Positions 6,418 to 31,899 of a stretch of 52,415 bases of DNA are shown here, in pieces. This DNA is from a virus: IMG/VR virus record IMGVR_UViG_3300030116_004169, positions 8,219 through 60,633 of that record; one strand, 5' to 3'. The first letter of the stretch is position 1. Each line of letters opens with the position of its first letter. A program made the position numbers and the translations under genes. The notes beneath the pieces were generated by a model. The model worked only from the letters and a program-made list of their open reading frames with translations. It was not told the DNA's origin and made no database searches.

Positions 6418-8737
6418 CACGATTCTCTTCGTTTTGTATTTTTCTCTCAGCAAGATCAAGTTTTTCATCTGCAACTCTAATTCTTTCTTGACCAGCTACC
6501 TCGGCATCTTCACGTTTCATTCTATCTAAATCAATCTTCTCATCAAACTCATAATTCTTTCTAACTTGATCTACTTTAAACTCTTCTGTTTTACGTTGTA
6601 AGTCCATAGCTCTTAAATCAAGCTCTCTTTGTTTAAGTGCTACAATCGGGTCTTGTTTTGTTGTACCACTTTCTTGAGAAACGAGAGCAGCTGTAAGTTC
6701 TGCTATTTGTCTAGCAATCATACTTTCTGTTTCAGCTTGAAATGCTTGAGGATCAGTATTCTGTAAATCTAATAGCTCAGGTCTTTCTTGTTGTAGATGT
6801 AAAAATACTTGTGCTCTAGCTTTAAAAGATAAATGTTCTGATATATGAGCTTGTAATAATGCATAAACTTTTGGATTAATTTGCACCATTCTTGATCTTA
6901 AAAAAGCAGCGTGTGCCTCTATGTGAGCATCGTGGTTTTGAAAGTAAAAAGCTTTTGGTATCTCCATACGTAATGCACCAGCATTTTCTACACCAGGGTC
7001 CATAGGTGTGTTTGTTCTAGGTGGAGGTAATAAACTTTCTATTTTTTTTGTTCCTAGAGCTTCATAAACTCTATAATAAGCTTCTCTTATGTTATGTATC
7101 TGTGGATTAGATTGTGCTATTTGCAACTGCTGAGAGGCTAATGTTACCCTTTGTGCTAATGAGAACGTATTTGGATCGGCAACAGGAATAACATCAACCT
7201 CAGCAGAAAAGTCTAAAGCTTTTATTTGTCGGTTTGCACCATACACTGCATAGGGATACAGTGGTGGGAGATAGGTGGCAAACACATCTGATAAAAGTCT
7301 AAACTCTTGACGCATAGAATAATAACATCTTTTGTGTATCGCACTCATAACTCTAGAGCCACGTTCTAATAACGCCAAGGTGGTGCCAACTGCACGATTC
7401 TGCTTATCTTCTCCAACATTCATGTCAGCAATAGCTGCGAATCGTTGACCTGCTTGTACAACAAAACCTAACAATTGAAATAAAACACTTGAAGGTTCTT
7501 TGAAAGGCAGTATTTGGAATTGATCTTTGATGTTGCCTCCTGGAGCATCAACATCTCTAAACTCACCAGGTTGAAAAGGTTGTTCATCATCTCGTATCCT
7601 CAAACCTCTAGATTTAAAACCTGCTGGCAAATTAGCTAAAGTACCTGCATCAAGTAGTTGTCTTAAAGCTGCGGTAGCAGTTTTTGACAGTCCACCTATC
7701 ATATGTATCAAACCAAACCCATAAAAACCTAGTCCTGGTAGAAATTTGTAGTGACAAAAGTACTCTTTTCTTTGAAATAAGGGGTCATCTGGAGAATAAT
7801 TTCTATAAATAGACAAAATTTCTTGTGATCCCTCATCAATCGTTACAATATAAGGAACTTTTACCTTTTTTTCTGCATCTTCAACACGAAATTGGTCTAA
7901 ATCTATGTCAACATGCATCTCAAGGATGTTAAATTGATAATCTTTATCGCTTGAGGGCGTAATTCCTTCCATTTCATTGTATTTATCTTGTATTTCGTTG
8001 TCTTCTGCCTGAGTTGGTGTAATTTCAACGTCTCTGTAGAACCCTGTTGTCATTTTTTTAAGTAAATCGTTCTCACTCATCTTAATAACGTGGGTAATTC
8101 TTTCACAATCTTTTAAATCTGATGCGTAATACGGCACCACTAAGTCTTCAGCTGGTATAAATTTACTTACAGCTCTATTCATAAGGTCATCATAGTATAC
8201 TTTTTTGAAAGAAGAGCCAGCTAAGGGTAGATAAAACAGTAATTGATCAAATTCTGGTGTATATTCTTCCATTACTTCGGTAATCATATAATTCATAAAG
8301 TCACTAACACGTTGAGCCTGTGCTTCTTTTGCAGGATTAGTGTCACCTACCACCATTGTTTTCACTGGACCATCAGCTGGTAATAATTCTTTGTATGCTT
8401 GTGATTGAAATTGAGTTACTGCTTCAGATAGCAAAGGATGTGTTACACTTGAAGCTCCTCTAAATGGTTGACCTTCACCATCGTACTTAAATCCTAACAA
8501 GTCAAGCCCACCTGTGTAAGCTTTTTCCCAATCGCTTCTTGATTCTCTGTCTTTTTTATAATCAGTTATAAGTGTTGATGCTAAAGACCCAAGTGTTCTA
8601 TCATCTAAAGTCTCTGCAAGATTTGCAAAAAAATCCTGTTCTTCTTCTACTTGCTCTTCTACTACCTCATCAACACCTTCATCTGATATTTCAAATTGCA
8701 CAGATTCTTGTTCATCTAAATTTTCTTCTATTGCCAT
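6401..8737 (-). CDS. Portal protein
   Basis: 778 aa. The dodecameric head-tail connector through which DNA passes. It begins with an acidic stretch (1-45), then YTGGLDLLGFKYDGEGQPFRGASSVTHPLL and SQAYKELLP, the membrane-free entry region of portal proteins of this podovirus type. The middle part carries PYYASDLKDCERITHVIKM and GFGLIHMIGGLSKTATAALRQLLDAGTLAN. The C-terminus is a long charged coiled coil (about 690-778), matching the barrel of P22-like portals. Its size (P22 portal is 725 aa) and place after TerL support the call. Confidence 0.87.
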   Translation of the reverse strand: MAIEENLDEQESVQFEISDEGVDEVVEEQVEEEQDFFANLAETLDDRTLGSLASTLITDYKKDRESRSDWEKAYTGGLDLLGFKYDGEGQPFRGASSVTHPLLSEAVTQFQSQAYKELLPADGPVKTMVVGDTNPAKEAQAQRVSDFMNYMITEVMEEYTPEFDQLLFYLPLAGSSFKKVYYDDLMNRAVSKFIPAEDLVVPYYASDLKDCERITHVIKMSENDLLKKMTTGFYRDVEITPTQAEDNEIQDKYNEMEGITPSSDKDYQFNILEMHVDIDLDQFRVEDAEKKVKVPYIVTIDEGSQEILSIYRNYSPDDPLFQRKEYFCHYKFLPGLGFYGFGLIHMIGGLSKTATAALRQLLDAGTLANLPAGFKSRGLRIRDDEQPFQPGEFRDVDAPGGNIKDQFQILPFKEPSSVLFQLLGFVVQAGQRFAAIADMNVGEDKQNRAVGTTLALLERGSRVMSAIHKRCYYSMRQEFRLLSDVFATYLPPLYPYAVYGANRQIKALDFSAEVDVIPVADPNTFSLAQRVTLASQQLQIAQSNPQIHNIREAYYRVYEALGTKKIESLLPPPRTNTPMDPGVENAGALRMEIPKAFYFQNHDAHIEAHAAFLRSRMVQINPKVYALLQAHISEHLSFKARAQVFLHLQQERPELLDLQNTDPQAFQAETESMIARQIAELTAALVSQESGTTKQDPIVALKQRELDLRAMDLQRKTEEFKVDQVRKNYEFDEKIDLDRMKREDAEVAGQERIRVADEKLDLAERKIQNEENRDEPKG

Positions 8738-11331: not shown

Positions 11332-12804
11332 CTAATAATAATTATACTCTTTAGGTGGTAGATCCTCATTATCCACATAATCAGAATATAAAGAAACAAA
11401 ATTACCTTGTCTATATCTTAACACTGCTTGTGTCGTGCTGTCTACATAGTCATCATTAGCACCATTAGGAAAAGCTGCACATTCATCAATAACATCTTCA
11501 GCAAACTTTTCACCATAAGGATAGAACACTTGACCACTTTCAAATACAGGTGCACAAGCATTTACTCTTGTATGTTTATCATTACCCTTCGTTGGTACAA
11601 ATGGTACTACAGGTATACCCATCCTTCTAAACTCTTGTGTCAATGGTTCACCACTTGCTTTTTGTTCTATAATAATTGTTTCAGGTTCCCAATATTTATT
11701 CGCATCTAACGCCACAGCTTTTAGTTCTGGAAAATCATATTTACCTCGTAACGCATCTAGTAGTATCATAGCAGGAGCTCCACCCTCTTCTGGATAAAAT
11801 ATACCCCAAGTTGTAATAGCAGAATAATCAGCAGTTTCTTTTTTACTAAACGCTGTATCATAACTTTGTATTACGTGCATAAGATTAGGGATATGACCCT
11901 TCCACGGAATCCACCATTCTCTTTTTAAAATAGCACCCTCTTCAGATGTAGGGTTTTGCATATACTGAGCAGACCAGTTTCTAATAGGTAAAGATGCTTT
12001 TATTTTTTCTAATTCTTCTAAACTCCAATACTCAGGCCATACTGGGTTCCCTGAGTCGAGAATCGCTGAGAATGAAATCTGTCTCCACGTATCAGCTTTC
12101 GGTTCTGTTTGAGCCTTCAATAATCTGCCAGTTAAGTCATCCTCTGCCCATCGTGTCATTACCAAAAGAATTGAGCCTCCAGGTTGCAATCTTTGTCGAG
12201 GTCCAGCTGTGTACCACTCATACGCACGTTCCATAGCAATATCAGACATAGCATCTTGTTCCGTGTGTGGGTCATCAATAATCAGTAAATCTGCACCACG
12301 ACCAGTGATACTCGCACCGACGCCAGCTGCATAATATTCTCCACCATGATTTGTTTCCCATCTACCTTTTGCTTTGGAGTCCTCACGAAGCTTCACATCT
12401 CCAAATATTTGTTTGTATTCTGGTGAACCCACAATATTACGAACCTTACTACCAAACCTTACTGCAAGTTCTGTGTTGTGTGACACTTGCATAATTTTCA
12501 TTTTTGGAAACTTCCCTATGATCCAAGCTGGAAAATAAATTGATGCAAATTCAGACTTCGTATGTCTAGGAGGCATATTTATTATGAGCCTCCCTTTTTT
12601 TTCTTTAGCGATATTTGTAAACTCATTTGCTATTATTTGATGATGTCCCCATTGGTCTTTATCAGGTGTATTACGATAAATGAAGTCTGGCCACATCTCT
12701 TTTACAAAAAATAAAAAATTATCCTGAGCCAGCTGAATGCTTTTTATCATGAGCCTCTCTACTTCGAGCCTTAGTTTTTCAGTAGGTAGGTTTTGTAGTG
12801 CCAT
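11332..12804 (-). CDS. terL: Terminase large subunit
   Basis: 490 aa motor-nuclease that drives DNA into the prohead. ATPase part: adenine/Q region near 50, Walker A variant NMPPRHTKSE (76-85), Walker B LLIIDDPH (173-180, D177-D178), coupling motif VMTRW (215-219). The nuclease part starts near residue 310 with SYDTAFSK, continues with TIIIEQKASGEPL and ends with NDDYVDSTTQAVLRY, giving the acidic RNase-H-like cluster. The RHTKSE loop is usual for this terminase class. No clear ribosome site precedes the ATG. The small subunit gene is unusually far away (16252-16776). Confidence 0.95.
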   Translation of the reverse strand: MALQNLPTEKLRLEVERLMIKSIQLAQDNFLFFVKEMWPDFIYRNTPDKDQWGHHQIIANEFTNIAKEKKGRLIINMPPRHTKSEFASIYFPAWIIGKFPKMKIMQVSHNTELAVRFGSKVRNIVGSPEYKQIFGDVKLREDSKAKGRWETNHGGEYYAAGVGASITGRGADLLIIDDPHTEQDAMSDIAMERAYEWYTAGPRQRLQPGGSILLVMTRWAEDDLTGRLLKAQTEPKADTWRQISFSAILDSGNPVWPEYWSLEELEKIKASLPIRNWSAQYMQNPTSEEGAILKREWWIPWKGHIPNLMHVIQSYDTAFSKKETADYSAITTWGIFYPEEGGAPAMILLDALRGKYDFPELKAVALDANKYWEPETIIIEQKASGEPLTQEFRRMGIPVVPFVPTKGNDKHTRVNACAPVFESGQVFYPYGEKFAEDVIDECAAFPNGANDDYVDSTTQAVLRYRQGNFVSLYSDYVDNEDLPPKEYNYY

Positions 12805-13922: not shown

Positions 13923-14020
13923 GCATTAATTTATATTTTTTTACATTTTTTTATATGTTAATTCCTGGTGTTGCTGCTTTTTGCTTTCCCTGGTAGGATC
14001 TGCTGCTGGCGCTTTTCTAT

Positions 14021-14061
14021 GGGAAGGGAAATGGGAAATGTGGGAAACTATGGGAAATGGG
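14021..14061 (+). repeat. Six-tract G-quadruplex motif (GGGAAA-type repeat)
   Basis: Six GGG tracts at 14021, 14026, 14033, 14042, 14052 and 14059 with loops of 2, 4, 6, 7 and 4 bases, all within the usual 1-7 limit for a three-layer G-quadruplex. It is intergenic, in a genome where GGG is rare. It precedes GC-rich repeat copy 1. Confidence 0.8.
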
Positions 14062-14088
14062 AAAATATAAAATGGCAAGACGCACACC

Positions 14089-14180
14089 TCCGTGATGTCC
14101 CCGAGGCGCGCGCCCGTGCCAGCTTCTTAACTAACTATAATAAAGAAGATCTTTTTGCTTAAAAACGGCAAACGGCAAAT
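14089..14180 (+). repeat. GC-rich structured repeat, copy 1
   Basis: Order of parts on the plus strand: CCGTGATGTCC, the palindrome GGCGCGCGCC (14105-14114), TGCCAGC, an AT-rich hairpin CTTCTT...AAGAAG, and the tail AAACGGCAAACGGCAAAT (14163-14180). The same order occurs at four other places in 14951-15956. Strand is arbitrary. The rest of the 13888-14250 gap holds the G-tract repeat and the hairpin at 14206-14233. Confidence 0.8.
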
Positions 14181-14205
14181 TAATTAAATAGAAATATGAT
14201 TAGTA

Positions 14206-14233
14206 GAGTTGCTCCTAAATATAAGAGCAACTC
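14206..14233 (-). repeat. 9-bp inverted repeat after the 198-aa gene
   Basis: GAGTTGCTC (14206-14214) and GAGCAACTC (14225-14233) with a 10-base loop, 17 bp past the stop of the minus-strand gene. It could stop transcription or protect an RNA end, but no T-run follows on the minus strand, so it is not a standard terminator. Confidence 0.55.
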
Positions 14234-14250
14234 AAAAAATTCAACTAGAA

Positions 14251-14847
14251 CTAACATATTTTAAAACCACCACTCGCTCTACAAAAACGCATAAAGTCTA
14301 CTACGTTCTCCTCTGAAAATGGATAGCTTGACCTATGGTCTAGCATCTTATAAATATCGTCCCATTGGCTTTTGAAAGGTTCTGGATAACTAACTGGTGC
14401 AATATTTTCATCATTTGTCTTATCTATAACTATCTGATGAAGTTCTTTCATTTTTATTCTTAACTTATTATTATGGTCAGACGCTTTCTTATTAACTTCA
14501 TCATACTTCTTTTGAATTTGTCTTACTCTTGACGTCTTGAGTTCTTGCTCCAATCTATCAGCAATTTTCAAGGCAACATCTTCTTCAACTCTATGTCCGT
14601 CATTATGATGCCAAGATGCGTGCTCCTCACTTGGTATAATGCCTCCCATTAAATTTAAAACATAATCTGCTAATGGTCTCCACCACCAAACATTATTTCT
14701 AAAATAATGCCCAACATTTTCCTTTAAAAATTTTTCTCTATCTTTAAAGTATTGTCTTTTTTCTTCGCTTGAAGGTTTGTCCTCCCAATTAATAGAAGGT
14801 TCTTTACTTTTTAATTTTGGATTTAATCCGTATAAATCGAATCCCAT
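14251..14847 (-). CDS. Conserved phage protein (MGFDLYGLNP family)
   Basis: 198 aa. Begins MGFDLYGLNPKLKS and has GHYFRNNVWWWRPLADYVLNL (residues 46-66), then ASWHHNDGHRVEEDVALKIADRL and a long helix (about 105-140), ending FMRFCRASGGFKIC. I recall the FRNNVWWWRPLW.Y pattern from many phage and prophage proteins of unknown function. Strong ribosome site AAGGAG and its own promoter P2. It stands alone between repeat copies 1 and 2. Confidence 0.75.
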   Translation of the reverse strand: MGFDLYGLNPKLKSKEPSINWEDKPSSEEKRQYFKDREKFLKENVGHYFRNNVWWWRPLADYVLNLMGGIIPSEEHASWHHNDGHRVEEDVALKIADRLEQELKTSRVRQIQKKYDEVNKKASDHNNKLRIKMKELHQIVIDKTNDENIAPVSYPEPFKSQWDDIYKMLDHRSSYPFSEENVVDFMRFCRASGGFKIC

Positions 14848-14872
14848 TTTATTCTCCTTTTTAAGTTTAACA

Positions 14873-14907
14873 CAATATTATTGTACACTATTATATATAT
14901 AAAACAA
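14873..14907 (-). promoter_or_regulatory. Promoter P2 (sigma70-like)
   Basis: Minus strand: -35 TTGTTT (14907-14902), 16-bp spacer, -10 TACAAT (14885-14880), then 6 bases to a GTGTTAAAC start region at about 14873, 26 bases before the ATG of the 198-aa gene. Same arrangement as P1 and P3. Confidence 0.65.
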
Positions 14908-14950
14908 GAAAAAAATTTTTAGAAGGTAATGATACAGCTCCTAGTGTAAA

Positions 14951-15036
14951 CCACTCCCGGTCAGGCGCGCGCTGCCAGCCCATTAGACTAAAGTCAGAAA
15001 CTCCAGCTTTTCCGTAAAAAACGGCAAACGGCAAAT
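14951..15036 (+). repeat. GC-rich structured repeat, copy 2
   Basis: Has CACTCCCGG, GGCGCGCGCTGCCAGC (14964-14979), the small hairpin GACT-AA-AGTC, a second hairpin CCGT...ACGG, and the tail ACGGCAAACGGCAAAT (15021-15036). The hairpin sequence differs from copy 1 while pairing is kept. Confidence 0.8.
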
Positions 15037-15077
15037 CAGGTCCCGGGGATCGGCCAGGCAGCCAGATCCAGGACCTG

Positions 15078-15096
15078 AAAAAGATGGGGACCAAAA
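15078..15096 (+). repeat. 19-bp exact repeat beside copy 3
   Basis: A 19-bp A-flanked block centred on GATGGGGACC, repeated exactly at 15713-15731. In both places it lies about 33-44 bp before a GC-rich repeat copy on the same strand, so it may be part of a longer unit. Confidence 0.85.
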
Positions 15097-15128
15097 CCCT
15101 TGGAAAACGGGGGTTTGGGAAATGCCAT

Positions 15129-15220
15129 TCCGTGATTTCCACTCGCCACGCGGCGCGCGCCAGCTCCTTAGACTATAATTATAAAAGTGTGCGTTTCCGT
15201 TAGAAACGGGAACGGGAATT
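15129..15220 (+). repeat. GC-rich structured repeat, copy 3
   Basis: CCGTGATTTCC (15130-15140), GCGGCGCGCGCCAGC, an AT-rich core around TTAGACTATAATTATAA, the hairpin CCGTT-AGA-AACGG, then GGGAACGGGAATT to 15220. The rest of the gap 14848-15325 holds copy 2, the 19-bp block and 15221-15325, in which I see nothing more. Two long open frames across this gap have tryptophan- and proline-heavy composition unlike any gene here and are not counted. Confidence 0.8.
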
Positions 15221-15325
15221 AGAAGACCATAGAAACCACCACACACAAAAGTACTACCCCCAACCACACAAGCAATCGAGGGCAGAACAAAACGATGAAC
15301 GCTAAAAAAATATAAAATCCCATTT

Positions 15326-15649
15326 CTACCTACATTTTATATTGTACCATAATTCTTCATAATAGTCATCTAGACCTTGAGCGTCCTCTCTGTAGTCACA
15401 GGTAGCACGATCATTCCACCAATAACCCTCTACTTGTTGAGTCTTGGTGTTGATCCAAATGCCTGGACCTCCTGTTGCTACGCACAGACGTGCACCAAGA
15501 TAATCACCTTTATAATCCACTATATAGTTGACATCTAAGATGCGTTCTAATAGTTCTTCCCAGGTAGAGCCCCCGGCTTCAACCCACGCTGCCTCCTGCT
15601 GGCAGATCTCCAGCAACAACTGCTGCCCTGTTTTCTTTGCTTTCTCCAT
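15326..15649 (-). CDS. Conserved phage protein with GGPxIWxxT motif
   Basis: 107 aa from ATG 15649 (AGGAG 8 bases upstream, leader 25 bases from promoter P3). Contains YLGARLCVATGGPGIWINTKTQQVEGYWWNDRA, a pattern I recall from many phage proteins of unknown function (DYLG...GGPN(I)xV(N/D)T...VxGYWWGD). Its GC content is clearly above that of neighbouring genes, like the repeats on either side, which hints at a shared outside origin. Confidence 0.72.
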   Translation of the reverse strand: MEKAKKTGQQLLLEICQQEAAWVEAGGSTWEELLERILDVNYIVDYKGDYLGARLCVATGGPGIWINTKTQQVEGYWWNDRATCDYREDAQGLDDYYEELWYNIKCR

Positions 15650-15669
15650 GTTTTCTCTCCTTTTCATTT

Positions 15670-15709
15670 AACACAGGTTCAGGATAACGGCAGCACGCGC
15701 AGCTGTCAA
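15670..15709 (-). promoter_or_regulatory. Promoter P3 (strong sigma70-like)
   Basis: Minus strand: perfect -35 TTGACA (15709-15704), 17-bp GC-rich spacer, -10 TATCCT (15686-15681), 6 bases, then GTGTTAAA at 15674. It drives the 107-aa gene. This is the clearest of three promoters sharing the same start region. Confidence 0.75.
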
Positions 15710-15712
15710 CAA

Positions 15713-15731
15713 AAAAAGATGGGGACCAAAA
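15713..15731 (+). repeat. 19-bp exact repeat beside copy 4
   Basis: Exact copy of the block at 15078-15096 (core GATGGGGACC), next to promoter P3 and 44 bp before repeat copy 4. The gap 15650-15862 holds P3, this block and copy 4. Confidence 0.85.
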
Positions 15732-15774
15732 AGCACGGAAATCAAGGCTTTGTAACAATTTGCCCGGGTCGAAA

Positions 15775-15856
15775 TTCCCGCACGCGCCCTGGCCATCCTG
15801 TCTAAAGACTTTTAAAAAAACCCAGAAACATAGGTTAAAACGGGAAACGGGAAACT
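15775..15856 (+). repeat. GC-rich structured repeat, copy 4
   Basis: TTCCCGCACGCGCCCTGGCC head, hairpin GTCT-AA-AGAC (15800-15809), then AAAACGGGAAACGGGAAAC tail to 15856. The head is less palindromic than in the other copies, but order and spacing (58 bases head to tail) are the same. Confidence 0.72.
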
Positions 15857-15862
15857 GGAAAA

Positions 15863-16255
15863 TCAGGTTTCCGTGCAGCGCGCGCTGCCCAGCAACAGGA
15901 TCTCTTTAACTATAGAGACCATAGAGCCATTAATCTTTAAACGGGAAACGGGAATTACGGAACTCGGCTCACGGATCACGAGAAGTTTGAGCTCTCTCTG
16001 CTTAGGTGCTAGATGCAGAATAAAACTTTTACCACCAGCTTTATGTCTTTTAAGATGCCAGTTAATTTGGAACTTTGATAAGCCATAATTCTTAGCATCA
16101 TTACATTTTAATTCTAACCAAAATTCTATTCCGTGCATAACACAGTTAACATCAGGGATTCCGTTGACTGTAGCAGATTCAATCCTAATAAAATGCCAAT
16201 GTTTTTCTTTCTTTTGAACTTGGTTAAGGTAAGACCACAATTGTGATTCTTTCAT
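15863..16255 (-). CDS. VRR-NUC-type nuclease with repeat-derived C-terminus
   Basis: 130 aa. PD-(D/E)XK nuclease of the VRR-NUC kind: N-terminal E3-S-Q-L helix, IESATVNGIPDVNCV (GxPD, residues 25-39), FWLELKC (E48-x-K50), then LSKFQINWHLKRHKAGGKSFIL (conserved Q and H-K). These form a metal-dependent active site; such phage enzymes act on branched or damaged DNA. About the last 30 residues are encoded by repeat copy 5 and look unlike the family, so the natural end was probably near residue 98. Start overlaps the TerS stop. Confidence 0.82.
   Translation of the reverse strand: MKESQLWSYLNQVQKKEKHWHFIRIESATVNGIPDVNCVMHGIEFWLELKCNDAKNYGLSKFQINWHLKRHKAGGKSFILHLAPKQRELKLLVIREPSSVIPVSRLKINGSMVSIVKEILLLGSARCTET
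15866..15956 (+). repeat. GC-rich structured repeat, copy 5 (inside a gene end)
   Basis: CAGGTTTCCGTG, the palindrome CAGCGCGCGCTG (15876-15887), CCCAGC, hairpin TCTCT...AGAGA (15901-15918), and tail AAACGGGAAACGGGAATT (15939-15956). It overlaps the 3' end of the nuclease gene and directly follows copy 4. Confidence 0.8.
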
Positions 16256-16776
16256 TCTACTTTTTCTGGTGTAATATCTATAATATTTTTTGAGTCACTA
16301 ATTTTATTTTCTAATTCTTTTAGTCTTTGTTCTAATTTTTCTCTACTCATTCCCTCTAATGTAGTGTGAGAAATTTCTTTTTTATCAACAAACTGACCTG
16401 CTAATTGACCTGATCTAAATTCTGCATTTATAGCTCCTGTGTATTGTCCTTTTTGTTCTGCTCCATCTCGTAATCTATCAAATATTTTATATCTTCTTAA
16501 TTTATCCTTTTCATATTTTGCTGTTTCTTCTGCTAATTTAATTTCAAGATACCTAGCAATATGTGGGTTCATATTTGGATTCATCAGTTTACTAGCCATA
16601 ACCATAGTAGCATCTTTTTTTTCTTCAGAGCCGTAACCTGCTTTTATGGCAGCATCTACTTGTGATATTTGACCCCAGTTGTTAACAAGAATGTCTACAA
16701 ACTTTTTCTGTTTGTCTGTCAAGTCGTCAATCGTTTTTAATGTGTTTTTTTTAGCTGGCATACAAATAGTATACAC
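16252..16776 (-). CDS. terS: Terminase small subunit
   Basis: 174 aa DNA-binding partner of TerL that selects phage DNA for packaging. The N-terminal helix-turn-helix pattern LTDKQKKFVDILVNNWGQISQVDAAIKAGYGS (residues 18-50) is that of the terminase-2 family, followed by AxxxLMxNPxIxxYLE and a central and C-terminal coiled coil (about 85-165) for ring assembly. GTG start at 16776 with AAGAGG 5 bases upstream; an ATG five codons later is possible. It is separated from TerL by 3.4 kb, whereas the pair is usually adjacent. Confidence 0.82.
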   Translation of the reverse strand: MYTICMPAKKNTLKTIDDLTDKQKKFVDILVNNWGQISQVDAAIKAGYGSEEKKDATMVMASKLMNPNMNPHIARYLEIKLAEETAKYEKDKLRRYKIFDRLRDGAEQKGQYTGAINAEFRSGQLAGQFVDKKEISHTTLEGMSREKLEQRLKELENKISDSKNIIDITPEKVE

Positions 16777-17839: not shown

Positions 17840-18106
17840 TTATTTTCTACCTGTTCTTGGAGTAAATTTATAAATATTTTTACCTTTAGGCACTTGACTA
17901 TTTGGTAAATCTACTTTTGCTTGTATGTCCTCTATCCCCATTCTGTACCACACATCAATCATTTTTTTGTGCAAAGTACCATCCTCATTAAAATTTACAC
18001 CACTGGACATAGCGTATATATAATCCATTACTATTTTGTAATCTTTTCTATCTAAATTATTCGATAAAATATGTATTATTTTATCTGTTTCTGTATGTTT
18101 TGACAT
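17840..18106 (-). CDS. Small early protein, unknown
   Basis: 88 aa, helical, no family recognised. AGGGG ribosome site 6 bases before the ATG; its start overlaps the end of the HNH gene by 26 bp. Confidence 0.5.
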   Translation of the reverse strand: MSKHTETDKIIHILSNNLDRKDYKIVMDYIYAMSSGVNFNEDGTLHKKMIDVWYRMGIEDIQAKVDLPNSQVPKGKNIYKFTPRTGRK

Positions 18107-18494
18107 TTACGACCCCTGTTTTAATTGTTACATATACTGGCCGTGCTTCGTGATTCGTGTTTCGTTTGTTCTTCATTCTTCGGTGCCCTAAACTAAATGT
18201 ATTTGTCTGAGAATTACAGTTAGGACACAAAAATCTTAAGTTCTGTAATCTATTATCGTTATTTACACCATTAATATGATCAAGTACTAAAGTCAAGGAT
18301 TTACTTTGCCATCTTGATTTTAACCCACAAACAGCACAACGATAAGGCAAAAGCCTTTCCATTATTATACGTTCCTTGACTCTATGTCTTGGATGAGAGG
18401 AGTTAGATATAAACACCTTTCGATTGTGTATTTTTCTCATACGGATCTTGGCAGCCAGCGACATTTTCTTGCCTTTGTTCCAAGCTTTTACCAC
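18081..18494 (-). CDS. HNH endonuclease
   Basis: 137 aa. Begins with an AWNKGKK segment typical of homing-type HNH proteins, then a basic helix. HNH core: YRCAVCGLKS (first CxxC), LTLVLDHINGVNNDNRLQNLRFLCPNC (catalytic D-H, N, second CxxC) and NTF. This is a zinc-stabilised nicking or cutting nuclease. GTG start at 18494 (GGGGA upstream) overlaps the preceding zinc-finger gene by 92 bp; an ATG at 18464 is the alternative. It may be a free-standing selfish nuclease rather than a packaging HNH, since it is far from TerL. Confidence 0.85.
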   Translation of the reverse strand: MVKAWNKGKKMSLAAKIRMRKIHNRKVFISNSSHPRHRVKERIIMERLLPYRCAVCGLKSRWQSKSLTLVLDHINGVNNDNRLQNLRFLCPNCNSQTNTFSLGHRRMKNKRNTNHEARPVYVTIKTGVVNVKTYRNR

Positions 18495-18971: not shown

Positions 18972-19128
18972 CATCCCTCCTTATTTTTTGTACTTTACTT
19001 AAAACTTCTTCTAACTTCTTAGAATAAACATCTACTGCATCGTCAGCTATTTTAGCTTTACGTTGCCAATGCTTAATTTTTGCCTGATAATATCTTATTT
19101 CTTCTTGTAATGAATGAAAATTAATCAT
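18964..19128 (-). CDS. Small coiled-coil protein, unknown
   Basis: 54 aa from ATG 19128, which overlaps the stop of the PAPS-reductase-like gene (CATGATTAA). One long helix with Q/E/K heptads. Similar in style to the next gene; both may be small partners of DNA enzymes, without evidence. Confidence 0.5.
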   Translation of the reverse strand: MINFHSLQEEIRYYQAKIKHWQRKAKIADDAVDVYSKKLEEVLSKVQKIRRDDV

Positions 19129-19969
19129 GACAAAAACACGCATCATCAGCTTTATCAAATTCAAATAAATCCATTTGTCTTTCTGTTATTTCACGAAGCA
19201 CGGCATAACTTGGTCTATCTTTTCTAAAATATGCAGCTCTATCGTTACCTGTTCCTAATTTTTTGCTCTCCATTTCTATCCACCAATCTGCTAGTTTAGG
19301 ATCTGATTTTATAATATTTAACAAAGTATTTTTACCCTTTAAAAAACATAAGTCACAGTTACCTTGTGGTGTTTTACCACCTATGTTTGGTAATCGTAAA
19401 TCAAAATTGTTATTAGTCCAATATTTAAAAACATCTCTTACACTTTTTTTTGCTTCATACAATGGTGCTTTTGTTTCCCATCTTTCTTTTTTATTTCTAT
19501 TGTGTATTCTAGCTACTCGGTGCGATTCATCGTAACGCAAACCCACATAACTATTCCAATGCTCAAAACCTTTATGACCCATACAATATCCACGCATAGC
19601 TTTTATCTTTAAATATGAGGTACAATAACGTGTAACAGGATTTGGTAAAAATCTTTTTTCGTCAATTAATTTTTTATAAGGTTCCCCGTTCCGTGATGCG
19701 CTGTTATGGTTTACAACATTTATTTTATGTTCAGCATCTTTATCATATTCAATCCACACGATCGGCACTGACCATTGTTGACTACACTCTTCTACAAAGT
19801 CTAATGTCTGAGGCATTTCTTTTCCTGTGTTTGCAAACACTACAGGTAGATCATCTGGCAATTTATTATCATAAGCATCTAATATCTTACGTAACATATA
19901 ACCAGATGTTCTCCCTCCAGAAAAGTTAATCACTCCTGGTGTTTCTAATTTAAATATTTCCTTCGTCAT
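19121..19969 (-). CDS. PAPS-reductase-family (PP-loop) protein
   Basis: 282 aa from ATG 19969 (GGAGG 6 bases upstream). PP-loop SGGRTSGYML near residues 17-26 with ANTGKEMPQTLDFVEEC, the ATP-pyrophosphatase fold of PAPS reductase and DndC-like enzymes. Then RYCTSYLKIKAM (C-x-x-x-L-K) and a later CDLCFLKGK plus terminal CFCHD, so four or more Cys could hold an iron-sulfur cluster. Phage members may take part in sulfur activation, for example DNA phosphorothioation or tRNA thiolation, but no Dnd partner is seen. True sulfate assimilation is unlikely. Confidence 0.82.
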   Translation of the reverse strand: MTKEIFKLETPGVINFSGGRTSGYMLRKILDAYDNKLPDDLPVVFANTGKEMPQTLDFVEECSQQWSVPIVWIEYDKDAEHKINVVNHNSASRNGEPYKKLIDEKRFLPNPVTRYCTSYLKIKAMRGYCMGHKGFEHWNSYVGLRYDESHRVARIHNRNKKERWETKAPLYEAKKSVRDVFKYWTNNNFDLRLPNIGGKTPQGNCDLCFLKGKNTLLNIIKSDPKLADWWIEMESKKLGTGNDRAAYFRKDRPSYAVLREITERQMDLFEFDKADDACFCHD

Positions 19970-20225
19970 CTGTGACCTCCATCTTCGCATCTATTTCTTG
20001 AAATATTAATGCTCTTGCTGTACTCATACCAAACAAAGGACTAGCTAAACCATTTGACGGATCTATAATATCTATTTTTTTTAGTTCATCCATTTTTATC
20101 TGTAAATCCTGATCGCTTGTTGGTTGACCACCGAAGTCATAATGATGAGTGTCGTGTAGTATATCATCAATCTTTTCAACAATACTGTGAAAAAATTTAC
20201 TCTTACTTCTAAATTTATATTGCAT
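19950..20225 (-). CDS. Small protein before PAPS-reductase, unknown
   Basis: 91 aa. Has HHYDFGGQPTSDQDLQIKMDELKK and an acidic end. AAGGAG ribosome site. It overlaps the PP-loop gene by 20 bp, suggesting co-production. No family recognised. Confidence 0.5.
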   Translation of the reverse strand: MQYKFRSKSKFFHSIVEKIDDILHDTHHYDFGGQPTSDQDLQIKMDELKKIDIIDPSNGLASPLFGMSTARALIFQEIDAKMEVTDDEGNI

Positions 20226-28708: not shown

Positions 28709-30112
28709 ATGGCTTATAATTATAAAACAAAACCTTATGAACATCAAAGACAAGCTCTGATAAAAGGTGCAGAAAAAAATGACTTTGCTTACTTTATGGA
28801 GATGGGTACGGGTAAAACCAAAGTTGCTATTGATAATGCATCATACTTATATACACAAGATAAAGTAAAAGGGGTTTTGGTAATCGCACCTAACTCTGTT
28901 TATAGAAACTGGGCTAATGAAATAGATATACATTGTCCTGTAGAACACGATGTAAAAATACACAAGAAAAATAAAATTTTTGATTGGAATGATTCTAAAT
29001 TAAATTTTTATCTTATGAACGTTGAAGCTTTTTCGACAGCAAAAGCATACAAAGTAATAGAGAAAATAATTATTGAACACTATAAAGAAATGATGGTTAT
29101 TGTTGATGAGTCAACTACGATCAAAAACAGATCAGCTAAAAGAACAAAAAATCTTACGACTATATGTAGAATTATAAATTACAAAAGAATATTGACTGGT
29201 TCACCTGTAACAAAATCACCACTTGATTTATTTAGTCAATGTGAATTTTTAAATCCTAATTTATTAGGCTTCTCTAACTTTTATGTTTTTAGAGCCAGGT
29301 ATTGTGTTATGAGAAACATTACAGTCGGAGGTAGTAGACAAGTTCCTTTACCTATGTATTATACCAACCTAGATGATTTAGAAATGAAATTGAAAAATTT
29401 TTCATACAGAGTAAGAAAAGAGGAATGCCTGGACCTGCCTGAAAAAGTTTATGTAAAAAGATACGTGCAACTTAAAGGTGAGCAACTAGAAGTGTATAGT
29501 GATTTAAAAAAATACGCTAGAGCAATCTTTGAAAACGAAGAGGCCTCATATGCTAATAAGTTGACTGAAATATTAAAACTACATCAAGTGTGCTGTGGAT
29601 ATTTTGTATCTGATGAAGGACTAAAAAAAGACATAGATAACCCTAAGCTTGATGAGCTATTGAACACCATAGAAGAGAATGAAGGCAAGATAATAATATG
29701 GGCTAATTATATACATAGTTTAGAAAAGATTATTAGTAAGTTAGAAACTAAATATGGAAAAGAATCTACTGTTGCAATTTATGGAGCAGTTAGTGTTGAC
29801 CAAAGACAAGAAGCTGTAAAAAGATTTCAAGAGGATAAAAATACAAGATTTTTTGTTGGTAATCCTGTAACAGGAGGGTATGGTTTAAATCTCACTAAAG
29901 CACACACAGTAATTTATTTTAGCAATAGTTATGATCTTGAGGTAAGACAACAGTCAGAAGACAGGGCTCATAGAATAGGCCAGACAAGTAAAGTAACTTA
30001 TATAGACATTATTGCTCAAGGCACTATTGATGAGTTTATAATAAAAGCACTAAACAATAAAATAAAAATAAGTGCTCAAACTTTAGGTGAAGATGTATTG
30101 ACCTTTTTATAA
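28709..30112 (+). CDS. SNF2-type SF2 helicase
   Basis: 467 aa. Motif Q/I: YEHQRQAL and MGTGKT (32-37), Ia IAPNSVYRNW, II VDES (132-135), III LTGSPVTKSP, IV IIWANYIHSLEKI, V GGYGLNLTKAHTVIYFS, VI QQSEDRAHRIGQ. The QxxxRxxRxGQ box marks the SNF2 group. It likely moves on double-stranded DNA; phage members may aid recombination, fork restart or displacement of bound proteins. It is the only large plus-strand gene. AAGGAG site upstream. Its end overlaps the convergent nuclease gene by 37 bp. Confidence 0.93.
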   Translation: MAYNYKTKPYEHQRQALIKGAEKNDFAYFMEMGTGKTKVAIDNASYLYTQDKVKGVLVIAPNSVYRNWANEIDIHCPVEHDVKIHKKNKIFDWNDSKLNFYLMNVEAFSTAKAYKVIEKIIIEHYKEMMVIVDESTTIKNRSAKRTKNLTTICRIINYKRILTGSPVTKSPLDLFSQCEFLNPNLLGFSNFYVFRARYCVMRNITVGGSRQVPLPMYYTNLDDLEMKLKNFSYRVRKEECLDLPEKVYVKRYVQLKGEQLEVYSDLKKYARAIFENEEASYANKLTEILKLHQVCCGYFVSDEGLKKDIDNPKLDELLNTIEENEGKIIIWANYIHSLEKIISKLETKYGKESTVAIYGAVSVDQRQEAVKRFQEDKNTRFFVGNPVTGGYGLNLTKAHTVIYFSNSYDLEVRQQSEDRAHRIGQTSKVTYIDIIAQGTIDEFIIKALNNKIKISAQTLGEDVLTFL

Positions 30113-31554: not shown

Positions 31555-31899
31555 TCAACTACCTTTTTTATTTTTAGTTAATGTAAATCCCATTTTACTT
31601 GCTACTGTTCTTAATTTATTTAAAGTCATATTGCCTGGTGCGCCAGATAATGCTTTTCTTCTAGCAATAAAAGCTGAGTCTTTTGCTTTTATCATTTTAC
31701 CAGCTTTAGCGTAGCTTTTGGTTCCCATCATTTTACCAGCTTTGGCATAACTCTTAGTACCCATCATTTTACCAGCTTTGGCATAACTCTTAGTACCCAT
31801 CATTTTACCAGCTCTAGCGTAACTTTTAGTACCCATACCACCTACTTTTTTCTTAACTATTTTTTTGTTCATAGGTTTTTTTGCACTAGCTCTTTTCAT
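31555..31899 (-). CDS. Basic protein with four 12-residue repeats
   Basis: 114 aa, about 30% Lys/Arg. Residues 22-69 are four tandem copies of MGTKSYAKAGKM (one R for K). A Lys-rich N-terminus precedes and a C-terminal GNMTLNKLRTVASKMGFTLTKNKKG follows, which resembles a SAP/ LEM-like helix-turn. Such charge and repeats fit DNA condensation or binding in the head. Function is inferred from composition. Confidence 0.65.
   Translation of the reverse strand: MKRASAKKPMNKKIVKKKVGGMGTKSYARAGKMMGTKSYAKAGKMMGTKSYAKAGKMMGTKSYAKAGKMIKAKDSAFIARRKALSGAPGNMTLNKLRTVASKMGFTLTKNKKGS
31693..31836 (-). repeat. Four 36-bp tandem repeats in the coding region
   Basis: 4 x 36 bp, encoding MGTKSYA(K/R)AGKM. The middle copies are nearly identical at DNA level (plus-strand unit contains TTTGGCATAACTCTTAGTAC), the outer ones differ at silent sites, so copy number may change by slippage. 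Confidence 0.9.

Follow-up and report, generated by a model that had tools for sequence, protein, structure and literature searches.

Polar, lineage-specific repeat elements between the terminase genes of HTVC023P-like pelagiphages, a candidate packaging-recognition array

The DNA stretch considered here (the window, 52,415 nucleotides, positions 8,219 to 60,633 of the IMG/VR virus record IMGVR_UViG_3300030116_004169) comes from a viral record of 61,543 bases (G000) in which no terminal direct repeat was found. Between its genes for the small and the large terminase, TerS and TerL, lies a set of GC-rich repeated elements, which are the subject of this work. Since its TerL is 74% and its TerS 57% identical to the proteins of Pelagibacter phage HTVC023P, the phage is, by terminase sequence, an HTVC023P-like pelagiphage, one of the viruses that infect the most abundant bacteria of the ocean. 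TerL is encoded at 11332-12804, on the minus strand like every gene named in this paragraph, and TerS at 16252-16776. The latter is a Terminase_2-like protein whose Pfam score lies slightly below the cut-off and whose predicted helices 39-46 and 51-64 are positioned as in a helix-turn-helix (HTH). Adjoining terS is a gene for a PD-(D/E)XK nuclease of the VRR-NUC/Hjc-like kind (15863-16255), as suggested by a GIPD...ELK...Q motif, by a match to PDB entry 4qbo ('Nuclease', E 0.0049), which we take to be a phage VRR-NUC, and by matches to Hjc in 6 of 17 members of the nuclease family at E <= 0.1. The interval from TerS to TerL further contains g113 (15326-15667), a small variable open reading frame (ORF) between elements, g198 and three more small genes. 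The gene g198 (14251-14847) encodes a conserved protein without assigned function, with elements on either side; its only matches in the phage collection are in HTVC023P and DSL-LC01, and in the mapped loci, too, elements usually flank it.

A sigma-70-like promoter, recognised by its sequence pattern (TTGACA-17-TATCCT, 15681-15709, minus strand), lies between g113 and copies 4 and 5 of the repeat. The initial annotation had described five copies on one strand between the two terminase genes, and all five were found there, on the plus strand and hence opposite the genes. They are located at 14089-14180 (copy 1, downstream of g198, with the tail AACGGCAAACGGCAA at 14164-14178), 14951-15036 (copy 2, upstream of g198, tail at 15020-15034), 15129-15220 (copy 3, whose tail AACGGGAACGGGAA is built of 6-nucleotide (nt) units and ends at 15218), 15775-15856 (copy 4, the second of a pair at the nuclease 3' end, tail at 15839-15853) and 15866-15956 (copy 5, tail at 15940-15954). 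A probable decayed sixth copy occupies 13977-14066 on the same strand, its outer limits being set by eye, with GGGAAATGGGAAA at 14026 and 14052 (span 14026-14064). The repetition exceeds chance: the two-unit tail occurs five times on the plus strand of the window and not once on the minus strand, against an expectation of 0.03 (mean of 200 order-1 Markov resamples of the window, maximum 1). The 1-kb segment 15001-16000 has 47% GC and the remaining segments 26-42%, in agreement with the described GC-rich region. Parts of the description have to be amended. The head is GC-rich, but its supposedly fixed sequence GCGCGCGC is missing from copy 4; the two-unit tail is present in all five copies, but with 6-nt units in copy 3 and 7-nt units in the others; and the copies do lie between the terminase genes, but copy 5 is not intergenic, since part of it lies within the nuclease ORF, at its 3' end. 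The exact 19-bp block reported before two copies, AAAAAGATGGGGACCAAAA, is found on the plus strand at 15078-15096, before copy 3, and at 15713-15731, before copy 4. A match to this block with 2 mismatches also occurs on the minus strand at 31716-31734, within a 36-bp tandem repeat of 4.1 copies (31691-31836).

Across relatives, 214 merged elements were collected, of which 143 remained after dropping those at least 75% alike. These non-redundant elements keep one order of parts over about 95 bp: a GC-rich head (near 78% G+C) about 52 nt before the tail, an A-rich stretch (52% A) about 27 nt before it, and a tail of at least two short direct repeats, with the general form (CGG(G/C)A1-3)n and units of 5, 6 or 7 nt within this CGGGA family. 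Orthologous elements of close relatives were placed by flanking alignment, the tail being required in one member of each pair, and in the resulting 293 directed comparisons the 13-nt tail differs at 4.7% of sites, as against 16-19% in the flank, 13-14% in the middle and 18% in the head. Judged from these alignments, the tail is the conserved part of the element, and the head keeps its composition rather than its sequence. Among the 214 elements, 68 are the second in a tandem pair (median spacing 94 nt, interquartile range 87-100, n=76), 95 follow a stop codon, at distances that peak at 0-10, 70-80 and 100-110 nt, and 50 are located inside recurrent ORFs, in 44 cases at the 3' end of the nuclease gene. 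In the gap before g198, the loci L016 and L017 are near-identical in sequence, with a deletion of about 54 nt that takes out one element tail.

The AT-rich middle had been thought to form a hairpin under selection for structure, a proposal that the stem counts do not bear out. Of the 142 non-redundant elements examined, 81 form a stem of at least 4 bp in the AT part, where shuffles give 72.4 +/- 5.4, and 23 form one of at least 5 bp, where shuffles give 25.4; a stem of at least 4 bp is also found in 59% of random 32-mers from the window. A conserved AT-rich hairpin is thus rejected, its stems being at chance level. Longer stems, of at least 7 bp, exceed chance in a minority of elements, in the head (13/142 against 4.3 in shuffles) and in the tail arm (19/142 against 2.2); a control stretch upstream gave 8/141 against 4.5. 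With AT-part hairpins at chance and no Rfam match in the window, a structured RNA is rejected as well, although no covariance model was built, and a family of small RNAs, one of four roles initially suggested, is unsupported on the same grounds.

The distribution of the elements was followed from several starting points. A search with TerS only, which is independent of the repeat, gave 49 loci, of which 39 have at least one tail, three (L045-L047) have another motif, of the AATCTCTACC type, and seven, of the L038 type, have neither. Conversely, a scan with the tail pattern only (CCAGC..AACGGGAAACGGGAA) returned 23 stretches, every one of which carries relatives of the genes next to the repeats; in another pattern scan of viral contigs, 17 of 35 stretches carry none of these genes. 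In whole records, CGGGAA-N0-1-CGGGAA is present in 12 of 14 viral records, each time in one cluster, on one strand and nowhere else, and the reversed pattern used as a control is present in none; of the two records without an exact two-unit tail, one (G004) has 5-nt units and the other (G013) is of the AATCTCTACC type. The 42 mapped loci hold 222 tails on the strand opposite to the genes, as against 8 on the same strand as the genes. Eight of these loci lack TerS or TerL, so that "outside the interval" is partly empty in them, and the 34 with both terminases were counted apart: they hold 181 opposite-strand tails within the interval and none outside, in 155,858 flanking bases, together with 5 tails on the gene strand. 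Because the 42 loci were hand-picked from 108, with 11 coming from motif-based scans, 39 of 49 is the figure that is free of locus choice; near-duplicate genomes remain among the 42. Within the interval, no element lies between the last genes before terL in the mapped loci, and none was found in 12 other spacers of at least 120 nt in the genome of the window (one uncalled gene left out).

The polarity of the copies can be compared with the direction of the genes around them. In 023Pt_psg01, five copies of one polarity occupy convergent, co-directional and divergent gaps, and the same three kinds of gap hold the copies of HTVC027P once the annotated gp32 (16499-16747, minus strand) is set aside; gp32 covers the first repeats, and an unannotated nuclease ORF was used in its place, as one was in 023Pt_psg01. 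Among the copies of psg01-like loci, 93 of 226 are inside a predicted ORF of at least 60 amino acids, and the copies flanked by an ORF to either side are distributed over -+ (46), -- (30), ++ (17) and +- (12) gaps. Since the copies keep their polarity across every gene orientation, it follows the genome axis and not transcription, and a role as promoter or terminator is therefore hard to reconcile with it.

Between lineages, the motif itself is replaced. Relatives with a TerL 85-89% identical (76% in one fragment) have unrelated motifs in the same neighbourhood. One is AATCTCTACC, present in 6 of 6 records with 37 matches that keep to a single strand in each record (1 match for the control); the other is CAATCATATY, the motif of family c, with 34 matches in 7 records, clustered in 5 and unclustered in G032 and G033. 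Within the CGGGA family, a GTCCCGCCGT variant distinguishes a further clade, with 27 matches in 8 of 8 records and again a single strand in each. HTVC027P carries 15 forward copies of GCTTGNRGCTTG, all within the interval, and 1 reverse copy elsewhere, and 023Pt_psg01 carries 5 forward and 0 reverse copies of GGGCCCACCC, all within the interval. Of 283 relatives the best 80 were kept, and the 73 psg01-like loci among them contain 221 forward copies of GGGCCCACC and no reverse copy; in 50 of the 73, GGGCCCACC is found at most 150 nt after the nuclease stop. HTVC023P (L054) and DSL-LC04 (L057) have other or unclear repeats. In the AATCTCTACC and CAATCATAT groups, copies lie within the nuclease ORF and code for a repetitive C-terminus. 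These lineage-specific repeats give the nuclease LPDSES units in one group and NHI-type units in another (G013/L109, around 950-1375; L264/L267). Another sequence, AAATCCCATA, recurs in psg01-like loci (for example L190, L198 and L205), in places directly after sigma-70-like promoters, and is perhaps an operator.

HTVC023P and HTVC027P are cultured phages of one host strain, HTCC1062, and have unrelated versions of the locus; phages of the same strain with different motifs would point to a reader encoded by the phage. Candidate readers were compared by their co-variation with motif family (CGGGA type, AATCTCTACC or CAATCATAT, with classes set from motif counts of at least 3). In 55 genomes, the Mantel correlation with motif family is 0.44 for the N-terminal part of TerS (TerS-N), 0.33 for the C-terminal part (TerS-C) and 0.28 for the nuclease. 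The partial correlation of TerS-N given the nuclease is 0.36 (p 0.001), and that of the nuclease given TerS-N is -0.09 (p 0.91); TerL distance is uncorrelated with motif family (r -0.02, n=26). The columns informative about family are densest at TerS 51-68, with a mean normalised mutual information of 0.45, compared with 0.35 in 1-30 and 0.17 in 91-165, and this segment is DAAMV-like in CGGGA-type proteins and GKPYE-like in the others. It overlaps the second helix of the HTH-like pair in the TerS model (mean pLDDT 75.6, pTM 0.54). The best viral matches of the model are small terminases (best E 5.5e-5); it has no significant fold match in the PDB, and a PDB profile search with TerS gave chance matches of ferritin type only.

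Of the four roles initially suggested for the repeats (packaging recognition by TerS, replication origin, small RNAs and a miniature mobile element), the evidence favours the first, through confinement to the interval, polarity along the genome axis, lineage-specific motifs and co-variation with TerS, strongest in the region of its putative recognition helix. We tentatively propose that the elements are a dispersed, multi-copy array, similar to a pac site, that TerS would recognise; such an array explains the confinement, the polarity, the direct repeats, the lineage specificity and the co-variation together. As in pac sites, the elements lie in or beside terS and consist of short direct repeats of fixed polarity. 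The HTH domains of the TerS ring would bind the repeated tail and wrap the element of about 95 bp, the wrapped element would mark viral DNA and its direction for TerL, and several copies would increase the chance of initiation. The nuclease adjoining terS may assist cutting or debranching. With sigma-70 promoters close to the elements, TerS bound there could in addition damp the expression of neighbouring genes, as reported for SPP1/SF6. A bolder version, which we regard as rather doubtful, sees in the locus a distributed packaging site that evolves like a centromere. Polar elements of about 95 bp would occupy most gaps from the gene of the Holliday-junction-type nuclease to the last genes before terL, and their sequence would be replaced outright in step with the TerS recognition helix, with TerL still about 87% identical, as co-infecting phages compete over whose DNA gets packaged. 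To our knowledge, it is poorly understood how a small terminase recognises its own genome, and few phages have a known pac site. Hundreds of related contigs here, from a marine phage group that is abundant, offer natural variation of a candidate recognition sequence beside its candidate reader; if the proposal is true, both the TerS-DNA code and the cause of its rapid turnover could be tested directly.

Several known systems resemble the array in part. The pac site of P1 is a hexamer array in which multiple short direct repeats are read by the small terminase. Pelagiphage elements share such repeats, whereas the P1 array forms one compact, methylation-controlled region. Closest are the pac sites of SPP1 and SF6, with Terminase_2-type proteins, which are described as having direct repeats in sets close to terS, DNA that is by turns AT- and GC-rich, and overlap with or proximity to promoters, the TerS-pac complex down-regulating transcription from the promoters that it overlaps (PMC4737164, PMC6316719). 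There, helicoidal DNA of about 100 bp is said to suit wrapping round the TerS ring, with its circumference of about 300 Å (PMC4737164, PMC6316719), a wrap length that the element spacing of about 94 nt approximates. In contrast to SPP1/SF6, several copies are present here, in successive gaps over about 3 kb from terS to terL and at the end of the nuclease gene, and the motif is wholly different between phages with TerL 85-89% identical. In the R-sequences of lambda cosB, too, a short sequence is repeated several times and bound by the HTH of TerS (PMC4856287), as is predicted here; cosB, however, is one compact site, and no cos nick site was identified in the present locus, where no search aimed at one was made. 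That no described family fits the repeats, as the initial annotation stated, holds within the limited literature searched: no account of them was recognised in titles and abstracts, which is weak evidence of absence since subscription papers were mostly outside the search. In PMC9599517, on the HTVC023P type, "intergenic" occurs 0 times in the main text, and the passages available describe no such repeats.

A number of observations weigh against recognition by TerS. The strongest is that 7 of the 49 TerS loci (L038, L039, L040, L041, L043, L044 and L053, with the order TerL-portal-TerS as read in L038) have close terminases and neither tail nor nuclease in stretches of 4-10 kb. Their TerS is 70-79% identical to that of the window, and TerL is 84-89% identical in the three that reach it; two of these loci were searched for repeats and gave no clear family, and none of the seven has a TCCCG cluster, in up to 10 kb. 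These contigs are fragments, and such terminases may work without repeats or with repeats elsewhere in the genome. The spread of the copies over about 3 kb, between genes, is unlike a classical compact pac. In SF6, the TerS DNA-binding domain is nearly indifferent to the pac repeats (PMC4737164), which calls for caution in equating repeats with binding sites. Part of the co-variation data is also unfavourable. Given TerL, the correlations with motif family are 0.64 for TerS-C, 0.62 for TerS-N and 0.53 for the nuclease (n=26), and TerS columns 18, 79, 125 and 128 and nuclease column 31 are as informative as the helix columns. Unit-length classes are separated worst by TerS-N (area under the curve, AUC, 0.81), after the nuclease (0.97), TerS-C (0.95) and TerL (0.85-0.87), and within the CGGGA family the partial correlation with unit length is 0.11 for TerS-N versus 0.24 for the nuclease. 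Families b and c share a similar TerS-N (0.76, with one b genome), yet their motifs differ, and chance hits are likely for the family-c motif because it is AT-rich. Finally, since TerS, nuclease and repeats adjoin one another, possible co-inheritance contributes to the correlations.

Some of these points speak for the nuclease instead. The repeats could be its substrate or recognition region, in recombination, concatemer debranching or a homing-like spread, with cutting and repair copying them between neighbouring gaps and so homogenising them, an explanation that we consider unlikely. In all inspected lineages except DSL-LC04, repeats cover the 3' end of the nuclease gene or follow it closely (the CGGGA family, with the 44 of 50 in-ORF elements mentioned above, the AATCTCTACC and CAATCATAT groups, HTVC023P, HTVC027P and the psg01 group, with 50 of 73), and both are absent from the L038-type stretches. 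Of the proteins compared, the nuclease is the one with which unit length agrees best, and repeated 9-mers abound in the 250 nt at the 3' end of its gene (rank <=0.05 in 48/137 and 16/72 loci). Once TerS-N is controlled for, however, the nuclease does not explain motif family, and what nucleases of the VRR-NUC/Hjc type recognise is structure, not sequence. In other phages, four relatives of this nuclease sit among genes of nucleotide metabolism or replication (their flanks were not scanned for repeats), and the repeats as a generic property of such nuclease genes were rejected on this basis. Replication-origin iterons, read by a lineage-specific initiator and with a polarity set by fork direction, would account for direct repeats with A-rich stretches, for fixed polarity and for one locus per record. 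We hold this to be very unlikely, as the genes for polymerase, helicase and primase are found at 21-30 kb of the window, more than 4 kb from TerS, genes interrupt the copies, the interval genes scanned include no recognised initiator, and GC skew keeps its sign across the locus, although AT skew goes positive in 15001-16000.

Selfish or recombinogenic repeats, either REPIN-like or products of gene conversion, could persist in a tolerant region and aid the swapping of small genes. The small genes between elements indeed differ widely among relatives, several homology breaks fall at the tail start (as in L019, L020 and L024), and of 321 ends of homology blocks 52 are at most 20 nt from a tail, where random non-coding positions give 33.4 (maximum 50 in 500). 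Block starts show no such enrichment (27/297 against 30.8), so that a cassette-exchange junction at the tail was rejected in spite of suggestive examples, and the tail is under constraint. REP/REPIN sequences are GC-rich, intergenic and partly palindromic, as are the elements, but these are restricted to one interval and hardly ever change orientation, and no transposase was recognised among the interval genes scanned. Because the copies are neither dispersed through the genome nor turned round, REP/REPIN or a miniature inverted-repeat transposable element does not fit, the miniature mobile element of the initial annotation is disfavoured, and selfish repeats in general appear quite unlikely. 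For an integron attC site, no integrase was found among 10 large ORFs of the window with Pfam and 10 with PHROGs, the core boxes RYYYAAC/GTTRRRY not being searched. Modules of terminator and promoter at transcription-unit boundaries are a highly improbable explanation. They would recall the PeSL cassettes of T4-type phages, mobile intergenic modules with promoters and stem-loops between shuffled small genes; the elements share this setting, and promoters and some stem-loops accompany them, but they are found at one locus only. In the CGGGA group, gene-sense sigma-70 promoters follow elements in 32 of 62 non-redundant gaps (at least 10 of 12 positions), against a mean of 2.3 (maximum 6) in 20 shuffles and 7 in antisense. 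By a strict rule, 17 of 143 elements carry a strong gene-sense terminator (ten shuffles average 3.0, and the opposite strand has 2), and hairpin energies reach -6 kcal/mol or below in 43 (32-34 in three shuffles) and -10 kcal/mol or below in 21 (8-15). Most elements are thus not terminators, and a universal intrinsic terminator, with hairpin and T-tract in gene sense, was rejected; moreover, one polarity is kept in convergent, divergent and both kinds of co-directional gap, independently of gene direction and unlike PeSL, and the distance to the next start is not fixed.

Beyond the interval, an HNH endonuclease is encoded near TerS, at 18081-18494 of the window, and an auxiliary gene similar to phosphoadenosine phosphosulfate reductase at 19121-19990. 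A gene for an SNF2-type helicase stands on the plus strand amid minus-strand genes at 28709-30112, where GC skew flips.

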